A DNA stretch of 64,000 nt, from the NCBI RefSeq assembly GCF_900099925.1, contig NZ_FNDE01000001.1:124001-188000 (forward strand), given 5' to 3'. How positions within the stretch are numbered: position 1 is the stretch's first letter; the number at the start of each line of letters is the position of its first letter. Origin of the DNA: Aneurinibacillus thermoaerophilus. GTDB taxonomy: Bacteria; Bacillota; Bacilli; Aneurinibacillales; Aneurinibacillaceae. The position numbers were made by a program, and so were the translations under genes. Below are positions 3,192-62,466 of the stretch, piece after piece. The notes under the pieces are model-generated. The model was not told the DNA's origin. It saw only the letters and a program-made list of their open reading frames with translations, and did not search any database.

Positions 3192-6100
3192 CTACTTTGT
3201 TTTATTTATTTTGTCCAGAGCCCGTTTCAGTAGCACCGCGCCTTCTGCACGGGTGGCATAAGCCTGTGGAGCGTATTCATCGCTTCTTCGTCCTGCCGCA
3301 ATGCCTGCTTTCACTGCTGCGGCCACATCTTTCTCTGCCCATAGAGAAATTTCTTTTCGATCCTTGAATTTGCGAAGCAATTCGCTCTTCTCATTCTCGC
3401 TTACTTCATTTTCCACTTGTTTATACTTTAGAGCACGGGCCATCAAAGCGGAAATTTCCTGACGGGTAATTTTCTGATCCGGATAGAAACGACCATCCTT
3501 ATAACCGCTGATTAATCCTGCTTTAGCTGCAGCCTGTACCGATTCGTAAGCCCAATGTTTAGGACTGAGATCTTTGAACGTTATCGCGCTGTCTTTATCT
3601 TCCTGCAATCCTAAGATGCGCGCCAGCATAGCCGTGAACTCGGCCCGGGTAATCGGGCTGTTCGGAGCAAACTTGCCACCCCCAATACCTTTCACGTATC
3701 CTTGACTGACCATAAACTGAATATCCTTTTCCGCCCAGTGACCTCTCAAATCGGTTAACTCAAATGTTTGCATAACCTCATCCGTAATCAACAGGGCAAA
3801 TCTGCCAAACTTGCCGGTGGTGAAGCTGATCGTACGAGTGGTAGGATTATACGTCCCTCCGATATAATCCCATCTCTTCGTATCCGGATTGAAACGGTGC
3901 GCATGAACCTGACCAGCCAGTGCAGCGGCATGCTCCTCCTTCGGAACGGGAAGATTTACCTGCAACTGCTCTGTAAATGTTTTGATACCTACAGCTTTAC
4001 CAGCTTTCGTAATCGCAGTCACTCGCAGCTCAAAAATGGTTCCGACGACTTTTTTCACCATCGCCGCATTTTCCGCTGCGTCTGTCACGTTTTTCGCATC
4101 TGCCTCGTTTAAAGCTGTAGCTGAGAATTCAATAGTGGCTGTATCCTTTATCGGCAATTCAGTAAGTACGGCAGAAGGAATTGTAAACGTAACATTATTG
4201 AATTTTATCTCCAACGCTTTTTTCGTGTCTTTAATTGTCTTAAGTTGATTAACTGTCAAGGAAATGGCCGCTGTTTTATCTGATTCGATACGAATGACAG
4301 ATGCATTGTTATCAAGCGCATTTTTCACCGCTTGATTTATCTGGTTATCGCTTACTGACTTCGTCTCCTCTTTAGCCGGAGTTGGCATCGGCTGCATGCT
4401 TCCACCGCCGCCACCTGCTCCGCCGCTGCCCGAGCCGCCGCTGCCTGATCCACCGCTGCCGCTACCTAGCACAGTAAATGTACCCTCTTGCAGTGTGGTA
4501 GTCACTGGTCCATTCGGCCCGGAAGCAAATGCCACCTCTACTCGGTAATTTCCTGGCTCAAGGTTTCCTAACGATTCGCTAAAGCCATTATAGTAAGCAG
4601 CCTTGCTCTCATTAAAAATTCTTGTTTCTTTTCCATCTGCTTGTTTCTTGTAGACACGAAGATATGGATAGATTTCCGTTACGGACGGGCCAGCGGGTTT
4701 CGTTTCCTCATGGTTGACGCTATATTCTACATCCTTACTGGCTTTGATCTGTCCATTTGCCTGCAAGCGGACAGCAAGTGAGCCTTGTTCCTCTGTCTCA
4801 CCTGCAGCGGCGCTCCAACTGCTATCTTCATCAATGAATGTGTAGACAACTTTGTTTCCATGTTTGTCCACAATTCCGGAACGTCCGGTCACCGCTTCTG
4901 TGCTTTTTATAGTCGTCTTATCGAGCAATAATTGCGGTACAAACTTACCGATCTGCCAGATTTTTTCTGCCCCGCGTGCAAATGACTGCTCTTTCGCTTC
5001 TTCCAAGAAATAATTCCATGTATACGCTGGATTCTCCTTATCTCCCAGCGTTAATTTCGTATCTAGATGATATGGAATATCTGCAGCTAAATAGAAAGTA
5101 TGACCTACGGTGTTGAGTTCATTCATTTCATGACGATATGGGTTAAACGGGAAAAGACTTACTCCCCTGAAATCATGATATCCCGCTGTATCAGGTTCAA
5201 AAGTGATTTTTGCTGTCTTGGTACCATCCAGCAATACTTTGTTTACCGCTCCTTCGCTACCGGAAACAACCGCATCTTTTTGGAACAGGTAATAATTCAC
5301 TTTCTTTCTTTCCCCAGTTTCAACAATGTAGTGACCGTCAAAGTGATACGTACCGGGCTCCAACCATACAACTTCTTTTTTATAGTCGTTGCCGGTAAAT
5401 TGATAGAAAGGAACTTTCTTTCCTTCAACCAGCCCTGGGAAAATAATGCCGCGGTCTCGGCGAATCGGAGTTTGAATTGCTTTTCCGTTTTGATCTTGCG
5501 CACTGATTTCAACCCGCTGCATATTCTCTAGCTTTATCTCTTTCAGTTCTTCAAGCGTTGTGAATTGGCGGAAAGCGAACAAATACTCGCCTTTATTGGC
5601 GGCCCCATATTCTTTGTCTGTTAGAATATAGATGATTTTTGCCAGATTTCCGTTCTCTTTACTCGATAGCTTAATGTTATCTTCAATGGCAAGCTCTCCT
5701 GTAGTGGCATTAGCTTTACCTGTGAACGACTTCTCCCATATCATTTCGCCGCCGTCTTCTACTGAATGATAAATAGTTACATTGGCTGCGAATGGCTTAC
5801 CATTCAATGTGGTTTTTATCGTTTTGTATTTCCGGTCATCTTTTACCGTATTCACCATATGAGCGGTTAGCTCTTTGCCGGCCAGCGGATTGTTCTGAAG
5901 CGTCAATTGAACATCATACTTACCCGGCGTAACGGTAGGCAGTACCACCGCCCAGAACGCCCAATAATAAAACTGGCGGAATTTGTTATTGTATATCGTA
6001 AAGTTATCCGCTTGACGCGTTACTTTAAAATTAGGGTAAATATTTCCAAAATAATATTCTTGCGTCTGCCAGCTATTACTTTGCTCATCAAGTCGGGAGA

Positions 6101-8933
6101 CGGTTGGATTCTCTCCGTTCATATTCTGTTTTTTCCACAGTCCACTGCCTTCTAGAGAGCCTCGATACATACCGACAAGAAGATTGCCGTATGCATCGGT
6201 GAATTTTTGCTTTGTAAAGAAATATTCGAAACTTTTTTGAACCGTAAATTCGTCTTCCTGTGGCACATACTCTTTTCCCGTCTTTTTCAGGTGATTTTTC
6301 AACTCTTCCAAATCCGGGGCAAATTCTGCAAGAGTAAGCGTTCCGCCTACAGGGATGGACACCTTGCCGTTTGCCGGAACTTCCACTAACTTCTCTCCGG
6401 TTTCACCGGTACCGAATACATAAATCCAGTTTTGCCCGCCTTCTGGGTCTTTGACCTCAACATCGACCCAAAAATCATAAGACCCAGGTGTAACCCGCAG
6501 CTTCCTGCCGACGAGAACTTCGTCATTAATCCCGATCGTTTCTTCCGTTCCTTCATTAAACATGTAAAGAATGCCATTCACAATTTTATTCTCATTATTG
6601 CCGGGCGCTAACCCGACTTCACCCGCTTTTGAACCGTCGAATACGATGGTCGTTGCTTGTGCGATTTGTTTTGCCCGTTCATGTAAGAAGTACGTAGCCT
6701 CCGCTGCTTTACTGTAGGCAAATAAATTATATTTTCCTTTATTCATGAAAACCGTTGAGATAGAAGAACCTTCTTCATTTAAAGCCGTAGTCGTTCCAAC
6801 GGTTATACCGTTATCATCGATGAGGGTTGCAAAATACTTTACGTTTTCCAGCTTCTTTTGATTTTCACCAAGCGTGTTAAGCGTAACCGGAACCGTTTCT
6901 TCTCCCCTGATCGTAAAGACTCCGGGGCCTTCTACTGTCTTATTATATAAAAATACGGTATTTCCTTCCGCAGCATCCGCATAATCAAACCCACCGTATA
7001 CGACGATCGATACAGTTGTTAAATCTGTCACAATCGTTCCCGGCACTCGCGCGACTCCTAAACTATCTGTACTGCCCGACCATAGTAACTTATATGTATA
7101 CGGAGCAGTGGCAGAAGAAGGGAACGGAGTCTCTTCCTGTGAAACAGGCGCTTTTGTATATATGCTTACTTTTGCTCCCGGCGCCTTGTTTCCCTCAGGG
7201 TCAAACACATTCAGCATAAGACCGTTTTTCGGATTGTTATTTACGATGACAGGTACGCTTGTACGCCCGATTTCCGCCTCTCCATTGTACGCAACCGCCC
7301 ATACCGTGTACGAACCGTCGGCAATTTTTTTCGTATCCCATTTCGTATTGTAAAGCGTCTGTTCCCCTTGCTTATTAACAAGTGAAATCAAATTCTCTTC
7401 TTTCACTTCATCGAGATAAAAACGTACCGAATTGATAGTTTCGTCGGAAACCCGCGCTTGAATGGATACTTCTCCCATAACATGGCTATCTTTTGTCGGC
7501 TCGAGAATTTGAATGGCGGGCCGCTGCTCGGGATCTGTGATCGGATCGAGTGTTTTCGCCGCATTCAGCTTACCGTACCCGTATGTGTTATCGCGTCCGG
7601 CGGTACCTAAATCGGTAGCTGCCGCCGTTATTGCGTAAGCGATATCTGAAGCGGCCGCTCCCGGGTTCTGTAGCTTATATAGCGCCGCTACCGCTGCTGC
7701 ATAAGGTGCAGCAAAAGATGTACCGCTTACTTTCACATAGTATCCTTTACTTTCATCACCCAGCGTCCCTTTTTCTTTTATCGTCGTAGTAATGATATCC
7801 ACTCCCGGTGCTACGACATCAAGGGTGCTTCCCTGGTTGGAAAAATCGGCGATTTTATCTTTATCCTGTGTGATGGCACCTACCGTTAACACATCGGGCA
7901 GAGCCGCCGGGTATACAGCATCTACATTGGTAGCCGCATTTCCCGCAGCAGCGACGACAAGTATTCCTTTGTTCTGGGCATACTTGACGGCCTGCTCAAT
8001 CGCTTTGCTATATTTGCCGCCCAAACTCAAATTGATAATATCGACACCTTGGTCGGCAGCGTACTGAATTCCGTTGGCAATATCAAAAGTACTTCCGGAT
8101 CCTTTATCATGCATAACTTTAACGGGATATATCTTAACATCAGCAGAACCAACAGCTCCCGCTATTCCTTTTTGATTATTATAGAGGGCACTAATGATAC
8201 CGGCTACCTGGGTACCGTGTCCGTGATCATCCTTACTGTCGCGATTCTCCGGATATAGCGTACCATCCGATTTTCTTTCAGCGAAGTTTTTTCCTTGCAA
8301 TACCCGGCCGACTAAATCCGGATGGCTATCGTCTACGCCTGTGTCAATGACTGCCACCTTAACAGTGCCCGATAGCCCTGCTGTTTTTTCCCAGGCTTCT
8401 TCTGCTTTTATGTTTTTCAGCGCCCACTGCTGCTCGAAATACTCATCTGTGATTGCCTCTTGACTGGATGCATCGGAAAACACCATATATTCCTGGTTAG
8501 GCTCCGCATATTCCACAGCAGGATTTTGTTCCAGTTCTTCTATTACTTGCGCCATATCTTCCCCTGGTTGCAGGGTATATAGAGTCATTCCATTGTCTGC
8601 TTGCTCTACTTCCTGTACTCCCATCGTGGCAAGGGCAGCTCTTGCTTGCCTTTCTTTTCCTTTTTTATATTTAACGATAATTTCACCTGGACGTTCTTCT
8701 TCTGAAGCAATAGTTCCAGCCCCAGGCTTTACTGGCTCTACGATAATGCTATCAGCGGAAGTCGTTTTTTCCCCGTTCGCAAGAGGATTATCTTCCTCGA
8801 AAGCTGCTGTTGTCTCCAAGGTATTCTCTGCCTCTAAGGCTAGCCCTGTTCCCATGGGAAAGAGCATGGTAAAAACAAAGACGAAACTCAACAGCGATCC
8901 AACAAACCTGTGCCATTTTCTCTTTTGCAACAT
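3192..8933 (-). CDS. giant secreted subtilisin-family (S8) protease with three SLH anchoring domains
   Basis: 1913 residues. A signal peptide (about 1-34, with hydrophobic run LLSFVFVFTMLF) precedes an I9 propeptide-like segment (about 82-150). The S8 domain spans about 170-450, with catalytic Asp197 (VIDTGVDDSHPDL), His239 (HGHGTQVAG), oxyanion Asn332 (AAAGN) and Ser406 (SGTSFAAP) all intact. An Ig-like segment follows (about 478-570), then some 900 residues without a family I can name. A Gly/Ser linker lies at about 1489-1512, then an unassigned domain, then three SLH repeats (about 1722-1913) that would tether it to pyruvylated wall polymer. ATG 8933 follows AGGAGAGGTG. It is a single-gene unit inserted between rpmF and fapR, two genes that are close neighbours in related genomes. 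The substrate is unknown. Confidence 0.93.
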   Translation of the reverse strand: MLQKRKWHRFVGSLLSFVFVFTMLFPMGTGLALEAENTLETTAAFEEDNPLANGEKTTSADSIIVEPVKPGAGTIASEEERPGEIIVKYKKGKERQARAALATMGVQEVEQADNGMTLYTLQPGEDMAQVIEELEQNPAVEYAEPNQEYMVFSDASSQEAITDEYFEQQWALKNIKAEEAWEKTAGLSGTVKVAVIDTGVDDSHPDLVGRVLQGKNFAERKSDGTLYPENRDSKDDHGHGTQVAGIISALYNNQKGIAGAVGSADVKIYPVKVMHDKGSGSTFDIANGIQYAADQGVDIINLSLGGKYSKAIEQAVKYAQNKGILVVAAAGNAATNVDAVYPAALPDVLTVGAITQDKDKIADFSNQGSTLDVVAPGVDIITTTIKEKGTLGDESKGYYVKVSGTSFAAPYAAAVAALYKLQNPGAAASDIAYAITAAATDLGTAGRDNTYGYGKLNAAKTLDPITDPEQRPAIQILEPTKDSHVMGEVSIQARVSDETINSVRFYLDEVKEENLISLVNKQGEQTLYNTKWDTKKIADGSYTVWAVAYNGEAEIGRTSVPVIVNNNPKNGLMLNVFDPEGNKAPGAKVSIYTKAPVSQEETPFPSSATAPYTYKLLWSGSTDSLGVARVPGTIVTDLTTVSIVVYGGFDYADAAEGNTVFLYNKTVEGPGVFTIRGEETVPVTLNTLGENQKKLENVKYFATLIDDNGITVGTTTALNEEGSSISTVFMNKGKYNLFAYSKAAEATYFLHERAKQIAQATTIVFDGSKAGEVGLAPGNNENKIVNGILYMFNEGTEETIGINDEVLVGRKLRVTPGSYDFWVDVEVKDPEGGQNWIYVFGTGETGEKLVEVPANGKVSIPVGGTLTLAEFAPDLEELKNHLKKTGKEYVPQEDEFTVQKSFEYFFTKQKFTDAYGNLLVGMYRGSLEGSGLWKKQNMNGENPTVSRLDEQSNSWQTQEYYFGNIYPNFKVTRQADNFTIYNNKFRQFYYWAFWAVVLPTVTPGKYDVQLTLQNNPLAGKELTAHMVNTVKDDRKYKTIKTTLNGKPFAANVTIYHSVEDGGEMIWEKSFTGKANATTGELAIEDNIKLSSKENGNLAKIIYILTDKEYGAANKGEYLFAFRQFTTLEELKEIKLENMQRVEISAQDQNGKAIQTPIRRDRGIIFPGLVEGKKVPFYQFTGNDYKKEVVWLEPGTYHFDGHYIVETGERKKVNYYLFQKDAVVSGSEGAVNKVLLDGTKTAKITFEPDTAGYHDFRGVSLFPFNPYRHEMNELNTVGHTFYLAADIPYHLDTKLTLGDKENPAYTWNYFLEEAKEQSFARGAEKIWQIGKFVPQLLLDKTTIKSTEAVTGRSGIVDKHGNKVVYTFIDEDSSWSAAAGETEEQGSLAVRLQANGQIKASKDVEYSVNHEETKPAGPSVTEIYPYLRVYKKQADGKETRIFNESKAAYYNGFSESLGNLEPGNYRVEVAFASGPNGPVTTTLQEGTFTVLGSGSGGSGSGGSGSGGAGGGGGSMQPMPTPAKEETKSVSDNQINQAVKNALDNNASVIRIESDKTAAISLTVNQLKTIKDTKKALEIKFNNVTFTIPSAVLTELPIKDTATIEFSATALNEADAKNVTDAAENAAMVKKVVGTIFELRVTAITKAGKAVGIKTFTEQLQVNLPVPKEEHAAALAGQVHAHRFNPDTKRWDYIGGTYNPTTRTISFTTGKFGRFALLITDEVMQTFELTDLRGHWAEKDIQFMVSQGYVKGIGGGKFAPNSPITRAEFTAMLARILGLQEDKDSAITFKDLSPKHWAYESVQAAAKAGLISGYKDGRFYPDQKITRQEISALMARALKYKQVENEVSENEKSELLRKFKDRKEISLWAEKDVAAAVKAGIAAGRRSDEYAPQAYATRAEGAVLLKRALDKINKTK

Positions 8934-28533: not shown

Positions 28534-28568
28534 TGAATTGCCTGTTTTATATTTTGTAGAAGAAAATA

Positions 28569-28595
28569 AACGTGTGGCTTCGGCTACACGTTTTT
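28569..28595 (+). terminator. terminator of rbgA
   Basis: AACGTGTGGC, a TTCG tetraloop, then GCTACACGTT with TTTTC: eight or more pairs with one G-U, then a T-run. Confidence 0.85.
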
Positions 28596-28644
28596 CTTAT
28601 GGCGTTAACACAAGAAATATTGATAAAAAAGGAGCGAAATCTCA

Positions 28645-29418
28645 TTGAATATCGCCGACATGACGATAAAAGAAATAAAGGAATGGCTAGAGACTTGCAA
28701 GGAGTTGCCGGCAGAAGTGCAGGCTCTGTTTATGGCTGATGCGCGAAGCGGTGTGCAAGCGGTATATAGAAGGTGGCAGCGAAACCAGGAGAAGGCACGA
28801 AAACAGCAGGAACGTTGGCTTGAGATGAGCCGATACGAACGCGAATTATGGAAAAGGGGGTACAGGCATATCGCAGGTGTGGACGAAGTGGGCCGCGGCC
28901 CGCTTGCAGGGCCTGTCGTTACTGCCGCCGTTATTTTGCCGCAAGATTTTTATTTGCCGGGACTAAACGATTCTAAAAAAGTGTCTCCTGCTCAACGGGA
29001 AGTTATGTACGAACGGATTATGGAAGGGGCTGTTGCGGTGTCAATCGCGATGAGCGACGCGCCCCTTATCGACGAAATGAACATTTTTCAGGCGACGCTT
29101 CGCGCCATGCACGAAGCGGTACGCGGTTTGCAAGTTGTGCCGGATATTACGCTAAATGATGCAGTCACAATTCCACAGCTTTCCTTGGAGCAGAGACCGC
29201 TTATCGGCGGGGATGGAAAAAGTATTTCCATTGCCGCTGCCTCTATTGTTGCAAAAGTGGAACGCGACCGGCTTATGAAAGAATATGACAGGCAATATCC
29301 GGGATACGGGTTTGCTTCCAACATGGGGTACGGTACGGCGGAGCATCTCGCCGCATTGCGAGAGAAGGGACCATGTCCGATTCATAGACGTAGCTTCGGT
29401 GGCGTACTTCAGTCATAG
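28645..29418 (+). CDS. rnhB: ribonuclease HII
   Basis: 257 residues. RNase HII removes RNA from RNA-DNA hybrids and single ribonucleotides from DNA. The catalytic block DEVGRGPLAGP starts at Asp80, after an N-terminal extension of about 70 residues typical of the Gram-positive RnhB. The TTG at 28645 is the best start; GGAG lies about 12 bases upstream. The C-terminus ends in the IHRRSFGGV box. ylqG follows 38 bp later. Confidence 0.95.
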   Translation: MNIADMTIKEIKEWLETCKELPAEVQALFMADARSGVQAVYRRWQRNQEKARKQQERWLEMSRYERELWKRGYRHIAGVDEVGRGPLAGPVVTAAVILPQDFYLPGLNDSKKVSPAQREVMYERIMEGAVAVSIAMSDAPLIDEMNIFQATLRAMHEAVRGLQVVPDITLNDAVTIPQLSLEQRPLIGGDGKSISIAAASIVAKVERDRLMKEYDRQYPGYGFASNMGYGTAEHLAALREKGPCPIHRRSFGGVLQS

Positions 29419-29456
29419 CGTCTTTTTGTATGCATTTCAGGGCAAGGAGGGAGAGG

Positions 29457-30929
29457 ATGATACAGAGCTTTGTGCTGAACCATGTATTTCAGCAAATGCA
29501 ACGGACGCAATTATCCGCGGTAGAACTTGTTCCAGGGCAAGTGTTTCAGGGGAAAGTAGTAAAGCTATTTCCAAATAATATGGCGATGGTGCAACTGGGG
29601 GGCATGACGGTTACGGCGCGTCTGGAAACGCCGTTAGAATTGGGGCAGCGTACATGGCTGCAAGTACAGCCAGGCGGGGGGCCGATTTCACTGAAAGTGA
29701 TTAGCCAGCCGGAAAAGCAGAATCAGGCTACGGAAGCAAGCATGGAAGGCTTGGCGAAAGGACTCGGAGTTCCGCTAACAAAAGAATGGCTCGCCTTTTT
29801 GCAAAAAGCGCTTGACGCTCGCATTCCTCTATCCGGTGGCTCGCTGCGTGCTGTGATGCAAGCGATACGGGAGGTGGGTGGTGGTACGACTGCGGAAGAC
29901 GCGGCTTTGTTTGCCATGCAAAAAGCGCTTCCAATTACCAAGGAAACCATATTGGCGTTACGGTCATTTGCAGGAAACAGCAATTTGGAAGCAGGAATGA
30001 AAAATCTTCTTCAGAATATGCATGACTTGCTTACACGCCCGGAATCGATTGCAGCAGGCATAAAGGAGCCGCTTCAACAGGCGGCCGGACAGCTTGCGGC
30101 TGCGCGGGTGATTCTTGCCCAGGTACAGGAAAAGCTTGTTTCATCGCCGACAAAATTCGAGGGGCAGGTACAACGAACAATTTCTTCTATAGAGCAACCG
30201 GCTTTGTTGTTGCAGGAATCTGGGGACGAAAGTGTTTCTAAGGCCCCTTTAGCCGCTTCTACCCAAGGAGGGATCAAGCGGTTAATGATAGAGTTGTTTG
30301 AGCGTCTTGGCTTTTTCCATGAACGCGCCCTGGCGCAAGCGATAGATAGGGAAGCGCAGGATTGGGGGAAGCAGGCAGGAAGCGTGAAAGGCTCGCTGCT
30401 TCAACTTTTACAGCACCCGGAAGCGAAAGCATTACCCGCTCCGTTGCGGGAGCAAATGCAGCAGCTCGTCCAGCAACTTACCGGTCAACAGCTAATGATG
30501 GCCGGAGTACAGGAAGACGTCTCGTTTGTTCAGGTAGCCCTTCAGTTGCCACTGCCCGGAGGCAAGCATGAGGAAAATGCGCTGATCCAGATTGAATCAC
30601 GCAAAAAAGGCCCGGGACAGCTCGATCCAGAAAATTGCCGTCTATTTTTTTATTTGACCATGCAAAATATTGGGGAGACGACGCTTGACGTTTCCGTCGT
30701 AAACAAAATTGTATCGATTTATCTATACAATAACCGGAAAGAGCTTCCCGCGCTAGTGAATGTGTTGCGTGATTCGCTGGAGAAAAATCTTGCCGCTCAA
30801 GGGTACAGACTGTCATTGTTGCGAGTTATGACGTTGCCTGAGCGGCAAAACGATCGGAGCCAATCAGCAGCGCATGGTTTTCTTTCTTCAAATCTTACCC
30901 ATTATCAGGGGGTGGATGTACGCGTATGA
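29457..30929 (+). CDS. ylqG: YlqG-like protein with a FliK-like C-terminus
   Basis: 490 residues from ATG 29457, which follows AAGGAGG by six bases. The N-terminal 80 residues form a small beta region (GQVFQGKVVKLFPNNMAMVQLGG), the middle is Q/A-rich and probably helical, and the last 140 residues resemble the C-terminal domain of hook-length control proteins: beta strands, then a helix (LVNVLRDSLEKNLAAQGYRLSLLRV). It occupies the ylqG position between rnhB and ylqH. No signal peptide is seen. Function is unknown. It overlaps ylqH by four bases, so the two probably act together. Confidence 0.75.
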   Translation: MIQSFVLNHVFQQMQRTQLSAVELVPGQVFQGKVVKLFPNNMAMVQLGGMTVTARLETPLELGQRTWLQVQPGGGPISLKVISQPEKQNQATEASMEGLAKGLGVPLTKEWLAFLQKALDARIPLSGGSLRAVMQAIREVGGGTTAEDAALFAMQKALPITKETILALRSFAGNSNLEAGMKNLLQNMHDLLTRPESIAAGIKEPLQQAAGQLAAARVILAQVQEKLVSSPTKFEGQVQRTISSIEQPALLLQESGDESVSKAPLAASTQGGIKRLMIELFERLGFFHERALAQAIDREAQDWGKQAGSVKGSLLQLLQHPEAKALPAPLREQMQQLVQQLTGQQLMMAGVQEDVSFVQVALQLPLPGGKHEENALIQIESRKKGPGQLDPENCRLFFYLTMQNIGETTLDVSVVNKIVSIYLYNNRKELPALVNVLRDSLEKNLAAQGYRLSLLRVMTLPERQNDRSQSAAHGFLSSNLTHYQGVDVRV

Positions 30930-31204
30930 AAGCAAAATATACACGAAAAAGCGCGGTTGCCTTAGGCTATAATCCTGCCGAAGCTGATGCGCCCCGCGTG
31001 ATTGCCAAAGGAAAAGGAAGGATCGCCGAAAAAATTCTAGAGCAGGCGAAAGAACATGGGGTGCCGATTCAGGAGGACCCTTCTTTGGTGGAAGTGTTAG
31101 CTACTCTTGAGTTAAACGAACAGATTCCTGTTGAACTTTATCAGGTAGTGGCTGAAATCTTAGCGTTTGTCTATGAGACAGACAGACGGAGCGAATGCCG
31201 ATGA
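30926..31204 (+). CDS. ylqH: YlqH: free-standing FlhB cytoplasmic-domain homologue
   Basis: 92 residues. It aligns with the part of FlhB that lies after the NPTH autocleavage site: AVALGYNPAEADAPRVIAKGKG here against AVALKYDGTTMQAPTVVAKGQD in the FlhB of this window, and LNEQIPVELYQVVAEILAFVY against INQQIPEELFQAVAEILAYVY. The membrane part and the NPTH motif are absent. In FlhB this fragment switches export from rod/hook to filament substrates through contact with FliK. YlqH overlaps the FliK-like ylqG (ATGA). Whether it acts in flagella or elsewhere is not known. Confidence 0.85.
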   Translation: MKAKYTRKSAVALGYNPAEADAPRVIAKGKGRIAEKILEQAKEHGVPIQEDPSLVEVLATLELNEQIPVELYQVVAEILAFVYETDRRSECR

Positions 31205-31572
31205 CCCCGAAAAAAATGAACCGGCAGCGCGGTGCTGAGGGAGAAGAATGGGCTCGCCGATATCTTGAAGGGAAAGGGTTTGTGTTTGAACGGCGCAATT
31301 TCCGCACACGTGACGGGGAAATTGATTTGATTATGCGCGAAGGAGATACTCTTGTATTTGTCGAGGTAAAACTGCGCACGACAGTTCGTTTTGGACATGG
31401 CAGTGAAGCGGTGACACCGGCAAAACAGCGAACAATTCGCAAGGTAGCAACGGCGTATTTACAGCGGTACGGTTATGTAGCCAGCGCGCCTTCTGTTCGT
31501 TTTGACGTCATTTCAATTGTTTGCTATAGGGACAAAACGTATAAAGTTACTCATATTCCTCATGCCTTTTGA
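31201..31572 (+). CDS. YraN/UPF0102 family protein
   Basis: About 123 residues with the restriction-endonuclease-like core of UPF0102: GAEGEEWARRYLEGKG, then DGEIDLIM and VFVEVKLRT, which supply the E...D...ExK residues of a nuclease fold. Biological function is not established in Bacillales. ATG 31201 is preferred (GGAG nine bases before, and ATGA overlap with ylqH); ATG 31195 is the alternative. It closes the rnhB-ylqG-ylqH run. Confidence 0.85.
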   Translation: MTPKKMNRQRGAEGEEWARRYLEGKGFVFERRNFRTRDGEIDLIMREGDTLVFVEVKLRTTVRFGHGSEAVTPAKQRTIRKVATAYLQRYGYVASAPSVRFDVISIVCYRDKTYKVTHIPHAF

Positions 31573-31665: not shown

Positions 31666-31768
31666 ACCTCCTTTTTTGTACCTGAGCGGCTGGATGTCGT
31701 TCAGGTTTTTTTGCGTTTTCTCTTTTTTTCTTTGTCATTATATGGTAATTTTTTACAAAAGAGGAGGT
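31666..31768 (+). promoter_or_regulatory. comM leader: 15-bp long-range pairing that covers the ribosome-binding site
   Basis: ACCTCCTTTTTTGTA (31666-31680) is complementary to TACAAAAGAGGAGGT (31754-31768) over 15 bases with a single G-U pair. The second arm contains the comM ribosome-binding site GAGGAGG. A separate hairpin (31680-31712) lies between the arms. The RNA could therefore fold into a structure that hides the site from ribosomes. Confidence 0.6.
31680..31712 (+). terminator. terminator-like hairpin in the comM leader
   Basis: ACCTGAGCG (31680-31688) pairs with CGTTCAGGT (31698-31706) apart from one mismatch, followed by a T-run to 31712. It could end the yraN-side transcript or attenuate comM, whose start codon is 65 bp downstream. 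Confidence 0.65.
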
Positions 31769-44725: not shown

Positions 44726-44784
44726 CATTTTAGACAATCTGCTAATATTAAAGTTGTTACCTGTATATGTTATATTTTGTCGAA

Positions 44785-52237: not shown

Positions 52238-53581
52238 ATGGATGATATTCTAATAAATAGAATTAGCTTTTTTACTAAAAACGTGCCGAGCGCTGCTAAA
52301 ACAAACAATATGGGCAGTGTTTCCGGTTTATTTGCGAGCGAAATGCAAACAGCGTTAAGCGCGCTCTTTTTGCAACCTTTATCAGATGGTGCAGAAGAAA
52401 AGCAAAATGCGGTGTCGGAAGTAGTTGCGCAAATTGAAAAGCTGGTAACCGTTATTGAAGAGCAGGTTCAAAAGACAAAAGAAACGGACAGCAGTGAAGC
52501 AACACAGGAAATATTCGCGGCGTTGCAGCAGCTTTATGTATTATTGCAGCAATTGCAGCAGATAACCGGACAAACGCAGCGCCGAAGCGATCTGCTTGGT
52601 GTCGCGCAAGCTGAAGCAGCCTGGAAACAATTTCCTAATCTCATTCCATTCGGAAGCAGAGAGAAGGTTCAGGAGCTTTCTTTGATGGTACAAAAAACAC
52701 AGAATGTACTTGATGGAATAGGAGAGACAAAAGGGAATGTTTTACCGCCAGAACTGATAACCAGACTAAAAGCAGCGCTTTTGTTTCTGAAAGAACAAAG
52801 CGGTGAAGTTGCGACGGTACGTTCTGGAAACATGAATGGAATAGGGGCGTTGAATGCTGGAAGCGATAGCGGGCAAAAAGTGGCGAGCATGTTGAATGCT
52901 GGAAGCAGTAGTGAGCAGAAAGTGGCGGGCATGTTGAATGCTGGAAGCAATAGTGAGCAAAACGTGCCAGGTACGGGAATACAATCGGAGGCTGGTTCCG
53001 GTAAACGGGAGTCTGGATTTGCGCTGGAAGAAGGCACGCTTACGAAAGCTATGCACCACCAAATGCAGGGAACAGCTGCAGCAGGAAAAGCAGAAGCAAG
53101 CGTTGTTTTTAGCAACCGAAATGCGCATGTGCCACTTGTTCCTGCAAGATTTTTCGCGAATGAGATGGAAGTGTATATCGTGAAGCATATGCGGTTGAAC
53201 CAGGGTACGGGCGCGATGGAAACGACGCTTCGTCTCTTCCCTGAAAATTTGGGCCGAGTTGACGTGAAGATTACGGCATTAAATGGCGCAATTACCGCAC
53301 AATTTACGGCTGCTACTTCCGCCGGCAAAGAAGCGATTGAACAGCAGCTGCACCAGTTGCGACAGGCGCTCATTCAGCAGGGGCTTCAGGTGGAAAAAAT
53401 AGAGGTCAATCATGTTTCGGTCACATCAAGCGAATCAGATAACCGTACGTTAGATCAGGAAAAAGAAGGGGGTTCCGGGCGCCAGGAACATGAGCAGCCA
53501 AAGGAAGAAACGTCTGACGAAGCTGTTTTTAACTTAGAAGAACTGCTAGAAGAACGAGCGGAGATGTTGACTGAAGCGTAG
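52238..53581 (+). CDS. fliK: flagellar hook-length control protein FliK
   Basis: 447 residues. FliK measures the hook and signals FlhB to switch export. The C-terminal domain (about 310-400) has TTLRLFPENLGRVDVKITALNG and LRQALIQQGLQVEKIEV. The middle is Q/E/S-rich and contains three 14-residue tandem repeats beginning LNAGS (DNA 52850-52975). The tail is highly acidic. AAAGGGGGTGA precedes ATG 52238, 62 bp after ylxF. Confidence 0.93.
   Translation: MDDILINRISFFTKNVPSAAKTNNMGSVSGLFASEMQTALSALFLQPLSDGAEEKQNAVSEVVAQIEKLVTVIEEQVQKTKETDSSEATQEIFAALQQLYVLLQQLQQITGQTQRRSDLLGVAQAEAAWKQFPNLIPFGSREKVQELSLMVQKTQNVLDGIGETKGNVLPPELITRLKAALLFLKEQSGEVATVRSGNMNGIGALNAGSDSGQKVASMLNAGSSSEQKVAGMLNAGSNSEQNVPGTGIQSEAGSGKRESGFALEEGTLTKAMHHQMQGTAAAGKAEASVVFSNRNAHVPLVPARFFANEMEVYIVKHMRLNQGTGAMETTLRLFPENLGRVDVKITALNGAITAQFTAATSAGKEAIEQQLHQLRQALIQQGLQVEKIEVNHVSVTSSESDNRTLDQEKEGGSGRQEHEQPKEETSDEAVFNLEELLEERAEMLTEA
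52850..52975 (+). repeat. three 42-bp tandem repeats inside fliK
   Basis: Units begin TTGAATGCTGGAAGC at 52850, 52892 and 52934, exactly 42 bp apart. They encode LNAGSDSGQKVASM, LNAGSSSEQKVAGM and LNAGSNSEQNVPGT. Being a multiple of three they change protein length without shifting frame. Confidence 0.92.
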
Positions 53582-60601: not shown

Positions 60602-61381
60602 ATGCAATTGCTAGAGTTGTTGCCTGCGTTTTTGCTTGTATTCGTTCGGCTTACTGCTTTCTTTGTAACAGCACCTATTTTTTCGACAAGAAGCATTCCG
60701 GCCGTATTCAAAATTGGTCTTTCTTTTTTTATTGCTTTTATCGCTTTTCCGCTTGTGAAAGCGAATCATGTGATTCCGGTTGACTGGACTTATGTATATC
60801 TTGTTATAAAAGAAGTGCTAACCGGCCTATTGCTTGGATTTCTTGCAGCCTTGTTTCTGGCTGCCGTCCAGGTAGCGGGTTCCATTATTGATATGATGCT
60901 GGGATTGGCAATGGCGTCGGTCGTTGATCCGCTAACGGGAACACAAGCACCATTGATGGGAAACTTTAAGTACATTCTTACGATGTTATTTATTTTATCG
61001 GCAAATGGTCACCATTTATTAATTCAAGGTGTACTGTCAAGCTATCAAGTTGTGCCGCTGGATCGTTGGTTTAGCGGGATGAGTGATGGGACATTGTCCA
61101 CGTTTTTGATCGAGAAGTTTTCATATATGTTCATGTCGGGAATGTTGCTGGCCGCACCGTTGGTAAGCTCTTTGTTTGTCATTGATCTTGCGCTTGGCAT
61201 CATGGCGAAAACGGTGCCGCAAATGAATATTTTTGTAGTGGGGATGCCGGTCAAAATTCTCGCAGGCTTTCTGATTCTGGTTGTTGTTTTTCCGGGTTAC
61301 TTTTTTGTTATGACCCGCCTTCTGGAAGTATTGTTTTCCGCAATGGCACGCATGATCGAAATAATGGGGGCAGTTCCATGA
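60602..61381 (+). CDS. fliR: flagellar export gate protein FliR
   Basis: 259 residues with about six membrane helices. FliR completes the FliP-FliQ-FliR gate. Typical segments are FVRLTAFFVTAPIFSTRSIP and GLAMASVVDPLTGTQAP. It overlaps flhB by four bases. Confidence 0.97.
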   Translation: MQLLELLPAFLLVFVRLTAFFVTAPIFSTRSIPAVFKIGLSFFIAFIAFPLVKANHVIPVDWTYVYLVIKEVLTGLLLGFLAALFLAAVQVAGSIIDMMLGLAMASVVDPLTGTQAPLMGNFKYILTMLFILSANGHHLLIQGVLSSYQVVPLDRWFSGMSDGTLSTFLIEKFSYMFMSGMLLAAPLVSSLFVIDLALGIMAKTVPQMNIFVVGMPVKILAGFLILVVVFPGYFFVMTRLLEVLFSAMARMIEIMGAVP

Positions 61382-62466
61382 ACACGATTCGCTTTCAGGT
61401 AGACTTGCAGTTTTTTTCAGGGGAAAAAACCGAGAAAGCAACGCCGCATAGACGGAAGAAAGCGAGAGAAGAAGGACAGGTTGCCAAAAGTCAGGAAGTG
61501 CCTGCCGCCCTTGTTCTGTTCAGTTTGTTTTTGTTTTTACTCTTTATGGGCAAGAGCATGGGAGATAGAATCTATCAATTTTTTCAAGCTTTTTTTAATA
61601 GGTATTTGTTATTTGAACTTACTGAAGAAACAACGGAAAAATTAATGACGGAGATGGTATACCAAGCTGCGCTGATGGTCTGGCCGATTTTTTTGATTTC
61701 CATGGCCATTGCTTTTTTTGCGAATTATCTTCAGTTTGGTTTATTGTTTACCACAAAGCCTTTGCAACTGAAGCTGGATAAGCTTGACCCGATTAAAGGA
61801 GCAAAAAGAATTTTTTCGTTGCAGGCTCTGGTTAATTTAATCAAATCCATTCTAAAGGTCGTGTTTGTTGGAATAGCAGTATGGCTGGTACTGTGGGCTG
61901 GCAAAGAGGAATTATTGACGCTGGCGACTAAATCCGTAGGGGACATGCTGACCGTTGTAGGAAAGCTTACACTGCAGATGGGATTTATGGTCGCCGGGTT
62001 GCTCGTTGTTTTATCCATCCTTGATTATATGTATCAAAAATTCCAATACGAAAAGCAGCTTCGCATGTCCAAGCAGGATATTAAAGATGAGCACAAAATG
62101 ATAGAAGGCGACCCGCAAATTAAAGGAAAGATTAAACAGAAGCAACGTGAAATGGCTATGCGGCGCATGATGCAGGAGGTGCCAAACGCTGACGTCGTAA
62201 TCACGAACCCGACGCACTTTGCAGTGGCGCTTAAGTATGATGGAACCACAATGCAGGCGCCGACTGTGGTGGCGAAAGGACAGGATTTTGTTGCGTTGCG
62301 AATAAAAGAGATTGCTGAACGGCACGAAGTTGTGACAATAGAAAACAAGCCGCTTGCGCGCGCATTGTACGCGCAAGTAGAAATCAACCAGCAAATTCCT
62401 GAAGAATTGTTTCAGGCGGTAGCTGAGATTTTGGCTTACGTCTACAGAGTAAAAGGAAAAATTTAA
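61378..62466 (+). CDS. flhB: flagellar export switch protein FlhB
   Basis: 362 residues. Four membrane helices precede a cytoplasmic domain with the self-cleaving NPTH motif (VITNPTHFAVALKYD). FlhB decides which substrates are exported and responds to FliK. It overlaps fliR (ATGA). Its last 85 residues are closely similar to the stand-alone YlqH of this window. Confidence 0.97.
   Translation: MNTIRFQVDLQFFSGEKTEKATPHRRKKAREEGQVAKSQEVPAALVLFSLFLFLLFMGKSMGDRIYQFFQAFFNRYLLFELTEETTEKLMTEMVYQAALMVWPIFLISMAIAFFANYLQFGLLFTTKPLQLKLDKLDPIKGAKRIFSLQALVNLIKSILKVVFVGIAVWLVLWAGKEELLTLATKSVGDMLTVVGKLTLQMGFMVAGLLVVLSILDYMYQKFQYEKQLRMSKQDIKDEHKMIEGDPQIKGKIKQKQREMAMRRMMQEVPNADVVITNPTHFAVALKYDGTTMQAPTVVAKGQDFVALRIKEIAERHEVVTIENKPLARALYAQVEINQQIPEELFQAVAEILAYVYRVKGKI

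Follow-up and report, generated by a model that had tools for sequence, protein, structure and literature searches.

Why should a flagellated bacterium keep, apart from its flagellar operon, a soluble counterpart of the C-terminal domain of FlhB next to a gene whose product ends like FliK? The question is raised by ylqG and ylqH, found in a window of Aneurinibacillus thermoaerophilus DNA (the whole stretch that was analysed, 64,000 nucleotides). A first-pass annotation had recognized the two as an overlapping pair and suggested that they could tune the flagellar export switch or serve another process.

Organization of the ylqG-ylqH locus

The overlap is confirmed: ylqG and ylqH share four bases (ATGA), and the upstream product does carry a FliK/PscP-type switch domain. 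The ylqG start at ATG 29457 is nearly invariant among the 60 Bacilli orthologues compared and corresponds to M10 of a 499-aa ORF opening at 29430; YlqG residues are numbered here from this in-frame ATG 29430 (499 aa) and not from ATG 29457 (490 aa). Upstream, 38 bases separate the end of rnhB from the start of ylqG, and a terminator-consensus scan found no terminator-like site between the two genes. The order rnhB-ylqG-ylqH-yraN is thus a putative transcription unit whose cotranscription is plausible from the sequence, and its edges are marked by terminator-like hairpins of a kind that is barely over chance in the region (9 seen, 7.4 expected). As for the claim that the pair lies far from the fla/che operon, its location is indeed separate, but only about 13.6 kb lie between it and the fla/che genes, which begin near 44767. 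The features of the locus and its canonical counterparts are the following:

28568-28603, + strand, terminator-like hairpin between ylqF and rnhB, 5' edge of the putative unit (consensus match, weak alone)
28645-29418, + strand, rnhB, ribonuclease HII (ORF and profile matches)
29444-29456, + strand, Shine-Dalgarno-like AAGGAGG and spacer ahead of the ylqG ATG (read from the sequence)
29457-30929, + strand, ylqG, 490 aa: OB-like barrel, helical region, FliK-type switch domain and free C-terminal tail
30926-31204, + strand, ylqH, 92 aa, stand-alone FlhB C-terminal (CC) domain of the FlhX type (profile, PDB alignment and model)
31195-31572, + strand, yraN (UPF0102), overlapping the end of ylqH (ORF and profile matches)
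31680-31716, + strand, terminator-like hairpin and T run beyond yraN, 3' edge of the putative unit
52238-53581, + strand, canonical fliK within the fla/che operon, ending EMLTEA, without tail
61378-62466, + strand, canonical flhB with NPTH

YlqH, a stand-alone FlhB-CC domain

YlqH had been read as the FlhB fragment beyond the NPTH cleavage, with no membrane part, and this reading holds. The protein matches Pfam Bac_export_2 at positions 262-335 only, the last 74 of the FlhB profile (E 2.1e-22), and its closest PDB sequences are FlhB cytoplasmic domains. Against NCBIfam TIGR00789 (flhB_rel) it reaches 109 bits (E 9.9e-32), below the curated cut-off of 117.35, a very strict value that is passed by just 2 of 299 genomes. 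Its AlphaFold2 model (pLDDT 84.8, pTM 0.69) has the fold of cleaved FlhB, as manifested by the comparison with the CC chains of Aquifex FlhB (3b1s_B; Z 14.2, 84 residues, 1.5 A) and Salmonella FlhB (3b0z_B; Z 13.4). No membrane segments are present (best 19-residue hydropathy 1.1, versus 2.3 in FlhB), and NPTH is absent from all 158 YlqH-type proteins. YlqH is therefore a stand-alone FlhB-CC domain of the FlhX type. It shares fold and substrate pocket with the CC domain of FlhB (SctU family), whereas it lacks the membrane part, the autocleavage motif and beta strand 1, which in FlhB is contributed from the CN side.

The early-substrate pocket of Salmonella FlhB is formed by A286, P287, A341 and L344, according to the available part of PMC9307174. 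In the alignment with 3b0z_B these residues correspond to YlqH A22, P23, A76 and L79, placed on the DNA as follows:

30989-30994, + strand, Ala22 and Pro23 of YlqH, the counterparts of A286 and P287 in the Salmonella FlhB pocket for early substrates (3b0z_B alignment and conservation)
31151-31162, + strand, YlqH Ala76 to Leu79, A76 and L79 being equivalent to Salmonella FlhB A341 and L344 (3b0z_B alignment and conservation)

Across 158 YlqHs, the A286 position is Ala in 144, the P287 position Pro in 157, the A341 position Ala in 146 and Ser in 12, and the L344 position Leu in 121 and Phe in 35; Phe is not among the residues favoured there in Salmonella FlhB (PMC9307174). In a tree of 61 proteins, midpoint-rooted and built on few columns, the split between 12 FlhB CC domains and 49 YlqHs is supported at 100/100, and 13 YlqHs from filament loci (see below) form one group, also at 100/100.

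YlqH is a known kind of protein. FlhX-type proteins have already been described (PMC9321776 and PMC10746217, both in part), HP1575 has been considered an FlhB-CC 'spare part' (Wand et al. 2006, as cited in an excerpt of PMC3040844), and a flhX-fliK gene pair is mentioned for Nitratiruptor in the accessible text of PMC9321776. Like YlqH, the FlhX/HP1575 proteins of Campylobacterota and those of TIGR00789 are soluble FlhB-CC homologues of about 90 aa devoid of TM segments and NPTH. Unlike them, YlqH is paired with a FliK-like protein of distinct architecture, encoded in addition to the canonical FliK, and two such pairs occur in this genome, one of them inside a filament cluster.

YlqG, a sister architecture to FliK

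The AlphaFold2 model of YlqG, built from 60 sequences (pLDDT 81.1, pTM 0.80), is laid out as an OB-like barrel at about 31-103, helices at 105-357, a beta-rich domain at 366-467 and a disordered tail at 474-499. Its parts lie on the DNA as follows:

29520-29738, + strand, N-terminal OB-like beta barrel, residues 31-103 (AlphaFold2 pLDDT mostly 83-96)
29742-30149, + strand, helical middle region, residues 105-240, common to the filament-locus paralogue (model and HMM)
30525-30839, + strand, FliK/PscP-type substrate-switch domain, residues 366-470 (Flg_hook profile, model and structure matches)
30909-30926, + strand, C-terminal tail GVDVRV at the extreme end (strict tail pattern)

The FliK-like end proposed for YlqG found its counterpart in solved structures. 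Although a Foldseek search with the entire model returned nothing at E<=0.001, the model was paired with the PscP switch domain (5cuk) and FliK-C (2rrl) at probability 1.00 each, with a low whole-model TM as only a single domain matches. VIA-align superposed YlqG on 2rrl with Z 6.1 over 79 residues at 4.1 A, a modest score given the large model. At the sequence level, residues 404-468 match Flg_hook with 19.4 bits, under the 29.8 cut-off, and a phmmer search of the PDB sequences with YlqG turned up no true match; among the C-termini of YlqH partners, 82 of 99 match Flg_hook at E<=0.01.

The front of this FliK-like protein is an OB-like (S1/IF1/RecO-like) barrel, which compares with the OB folds of S1, RecO and CusF at Z about 6. 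HMMs of the barrel and the helical region were built from Bacilli YlqGs, and the Bacilli rows (20/20 and 19/20, respectively) overlap this training set. Outside Bacilli the barrel HMM matches 33 and the helical-region HMM 41 of 67 partners, and among filament-type proteins they match 6 and 11 of 12, versus 0 of 56 canonical FliKs for each. Because neither HMM matches any canonical FliK, YlqG is a sister architecture to FliK and no simple copy of it. With FliK/PscP (SctP) it shares the switch domain, and with FliK the C-terminal tail as well; in contrast to them it has a folded OB-like barrel and a helical middle region and no ruler, and ylqG lies outside the fla operon of a genome where canonical FliK is present too. 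The folded N-terminal barrel of the model is unlike a secreted ruler, so that the analogy with FliK may be limited to the C-terminal part. The open-licence literature searched yielded no work on what YlqG or YlqH does and no description of the YlqG architecture, its conserved tail or the filament-linked pair.

The C-terminal tail was scored with a strict pattern (hydrophobic, D/N, hydrophobic, any residue, V/I/A/L/G, placed at the C-terminal end), which is found in 87 of 99 partner proteins versus 0 of 416 other neighbour ORFs. Of the 58 rows from named-genome loci that have an upstream ORF, 49 show it, and five of the nine misses are rows with full-length flhB rather than ylqH. The end of E. 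coli FliK, GVDIFA, is of the same type. It has been proposed that the final five residues of FliK act on FlhB-CC (available part of PMC13344023, a 2026 mBio article). The canonical FliK of this genome (52238-53581) and those of many Bacilli are without the switch tail present in most other FliKs.

When the tail profile was run along 12 FlhBs, the beta-1 pentamer (ADVVI and variants) ranked 2nd-8th of about 358 positions and VALRI-type stretches elsewhere in FlhBs outscored it, so that a mimicry of FlhB beta-1 by the tail is suggestive only. Covariation between the YlqG tail and YlqH is uninformative, given that its top APC z in 145 pairs (3.9) falls below that of an RnhB control in 84 loci (5.0). 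The ylqG P457Q change in evolved B. subtilis clones of a swarming study (PMC11523185, in part) was left unused, being confounded by further mutations.

Association of the pair with flagella

The flagellar link of the pair is well supported by its distribution. In the order sample, FlhB is present in 14 of 15 genomes and 13 of these 14 carry a stand-alone copy; one family member (G010) is without FlhB, FlhA and ylqH. Among Bacilli, the stand-alone copy occurs in 41 of 49 genomes with FlhB versus 0 of 12 without it (Fisher p 7e-8, treating genomes as independent, an independence that is overstated as the profile includes related genomes). On a wider scale, 252 of 299 Bacillota genomes match PF01312 and 250 match TIGR00789, 189 of the latter with two or more matches, while none of the 47 genomes without a PF01312 match has TIGR00789. 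A short-frame stand-alone copy is found in at least 139 Bacillota genomes, and among the matches listed G036 is the sole genome without a full-length-scale FlhB score. FlhA is missing in 32 of the 34 FlhB-less or doubtful genomes, with fragments in the other two (G215 and G340). The profile that had been called for thus places ylqH in flagellated and not mainly in unflagellated genomes, and the wider Bacillota agree except for G036. This genome (loci L081 and L323) retains ylqGH intact, while its flhB is truncated and FlhA gave no match, which may reflect a gap in the assembly, flagella that were lost recently or a use of the pair outside flagella. The pair is evolutionarily dispensable: of 49 Bacilli with FlhB, 8 are without it, as are 60 of the 250 Bacillota genomes that match TIGR00789.

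The two genes travel as a unit. A partner ORF, defined as at least 150 aa, on the same strand and ending from 150 bases inside to 200 bases ahead of the ylqH start, lies directly upstream of 150 of 156 ylqH copies in the loci examined (counts that leave out L073, one of 100 loci, whose ylqH was missed by phmmer, and five full-length flhB rows). In the Bacilli group, 67 of 69 pairs keep the 4-base overlap and 66 of 71 loci have RnhB nearby; for the filament type the corresponding counts are 11 of 11 pairs and 0 of 11 loci, and for the others 8 of 70 pairs and 23 of 72 loci. Two or more Flg_hook proteins are encoded by 46 of 55 genomes with YlqH versus 0 of 67 FlhB-bearing genomes without it, 61 of which have one. 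YlqH and its partner are gained and lost together. In a Thalassolituus MAG (L238), a 98-aa YlqH and an overlapping 582-aa partner ending LVDVRT are encoded, a sequence arrangement by which the ylqGH type of pair seems to reach a gammaproteobacterium.

The same genome harbors a second pair on another contig (C97, L009, 4957-7757), consisting of an 803-aa FliK-like protein ending GVDISV and a 130-aa YlqH2, again with an ATGA overlap. The gene order in L009 is flaG 2042, fliD 2441, fliS 4009, FliK-like gene 4957-7368, ylqH2 7365-7757, second fliS 7827 and flagellin 8366, and two further flagellins are located elsewhere in the genome. Filament-type pairs occur in 11 other genomes, two of the loci (L112 and L119) being outside Bacilli, with a flagellin close by in 11 of 11. 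L009 has three sigma-D-like boxes on the + strand, one each for flaG, the FliK-like gene and the second fliS and all of them 25-55 bases upstream; at least as many boxes occur in 5 of 200 shuffles. A strict sigma-D box precedes the FliK-like ORF in 1 of 12 filament-type loci, that of this genome; a stricter version of the pattern used on L009 gave no match in the 64-kb window, and no sigma-D-like box lies near the main ylqGH pair, which sits in a housekeeping unit. The FliK-like proteins of filament loci (L129, L131, L133, L135, L137, L139, L141, L143, L112, L119 and L145) range from 691 to 1936 aa, and within one family the span is 784-1936 aa, much wider than for YlqG or FliK; the internal repeats that such a span suggests were sought in these proteins and none was found. 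In one filament cluster (G012, contig C3 27921-30556, L145), two stand-alone FlhB-CC genes lie about 2.4 kb apart.

We regard a function in the flagellum as very likely for ylqGH and as nearly certain for the filament-linked pair. The other possibility raised by the first-pass annotation, that the genes serve another process, is now unlikely because a paralogous pair sits within a filament gene cluster.

A proposed model for YlqG-YlqH function

In the available part of PMC13344023, Salmonella FlhB-CC is lost upon hook completion in a FliK-dependent manner, and cells without FlhB-CC do not export early substrates, the docking pocket being gone. We favor, as a reasonably probable reading, that ylqGH is an accessory of the flagellar type III exporter in which YlqH takes the place of the ejected FlhB-CC at the export gate, and the YlqG tail either retains YlqH or takes it away. 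YlqG would be its dedicated FliK-like partner, probably located in the cytoplasm, and would clasp YlqH with its switch domain and free GVDVRV tail in the way that FliK-C clasps FlhB-CC. Because the early-substrate pocket is kept, YlqH could serve as an exchangeable or spare CC domain that docks onto the bare FlhB core, and once docked it would keep the exporter in the early (rod/hook) state or return it to that state; YlqG would stabilize YlqH, deliver it or strip it off. The filament-cluster pair would do likewise late, during cap and flagellin export. We infer the grip of the tail on YlqH and the replacement of FlhB-CC by YlqH from homology, the Salmonella work and the 'spare part' precedent in H. 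pylori; that YlqG and YlqH bind, that YlqH docks on FlhB and which way the effect goes are also inferred. Several observations weigh against the model: tail-YlqH covariation no higher than in the RnhB control, the dispensability of the pair, its intact presence in G036, the housekeeping setting of the main pair away from any sigma-D-like box, the single filament-type locus with a strict box, the barrel that does not look like a ruler, and the Phe at the L344 position in 35 of 158 YlqHs.

A soluble FlhB-CC-like protein could also work outside the exporter, as a decoy: cytoplasmic YlqH would bind FliK or YlqG tails, which are of one type and coexist in many genomes, and would delay the switch until hooks are long enough, with YlqG as its antagonist. 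This is unlikely, as the early-substrate pocket is conserved though a decoy does not need it, and the FliK of this genome and many Bacilli FliKs have no tail to be bound. The missing tail invites a second alternative, in which YlqG of many Bacilli has taken over the switch tail from the ruler FliK and would act in trans on FlhB-CC with YlqH as its holder. The strict tail is missing in 19 of 35 canonical FliKs of pair-bearing Bacilli (present in 16), while it is present in 16 of 19 from other Bacillota with the pair and in 23 of 30 from genomes without the pair, the seven misses of the last group being two truncated reading frames and five near-matches by eye. Nevertheless, tail loss is confined to Bacilli, nearly all of which have the pair, so that phylogeny alone is sufficient to explain it, and we rejected this confounded pattern as proof. 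Furthermore, a B. subtilis fliK mutant is reportedly switch-defective and FliK itself must therefore act, which leaves such a division of labour improbable.

A non-flagellar process tied to rnhB and yraN, in RNA or DNA metabolism and reusing the FliK and FlhB-CC folds, would account for the proximity to rnhB in 66 of 71 Bacilli loci, the OB-like N-terminus of YlqG and the G036 pair without FlhA. It is very improbable in view of the absence of the pair from unflagellated genomes, the location of most other Bacillota pairs away from rnhB and the paralogue in the filament cluster. Finally, the pair might be what is left of an flhB/fliK duplication that has decayed and retains little function. This view, for which the 'spare part' precedent and the patchy losses could be invoked, is disfavoured to the point of being scarcely credible by its conservation across Bacillota, with overlap, tail and pocket maintained, and by the grouping of YlqH apart from FlhB at 100/100.

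The exporter-accessory reading admits a more far-reaching version, which we advance tentatively as possible: the switch may be reversible or proceed in several steps, so that after ejection of FlhB-CC by FliK, YlqG-borne YlqH would re-occupy the gate, and rod/hook export would resume or filament-stage export would be gated. In this version the GVDxRV tail would perhaps replace the missing first beta strand of FlhB-CC (ADVVI, of similar sequence), and the filament-linked pair would come into play late, the housekeeping pair being constitutive.

In the usual description, the export switch is irreversible and involves FliK acting alone on membrane-bound FlhB. If the proposed model is true, this switch would have an unrecognised layer, made up of a soluble, conserved FlhB-CC and the FliK-like partner that belongs to it, which most flagellated Bacillota sampled possess. 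The ylqGH pair would offer a natural system for seeing a FliK-type tail meet a free CC domain, and its role is directly testable in laboratory Bacillus.
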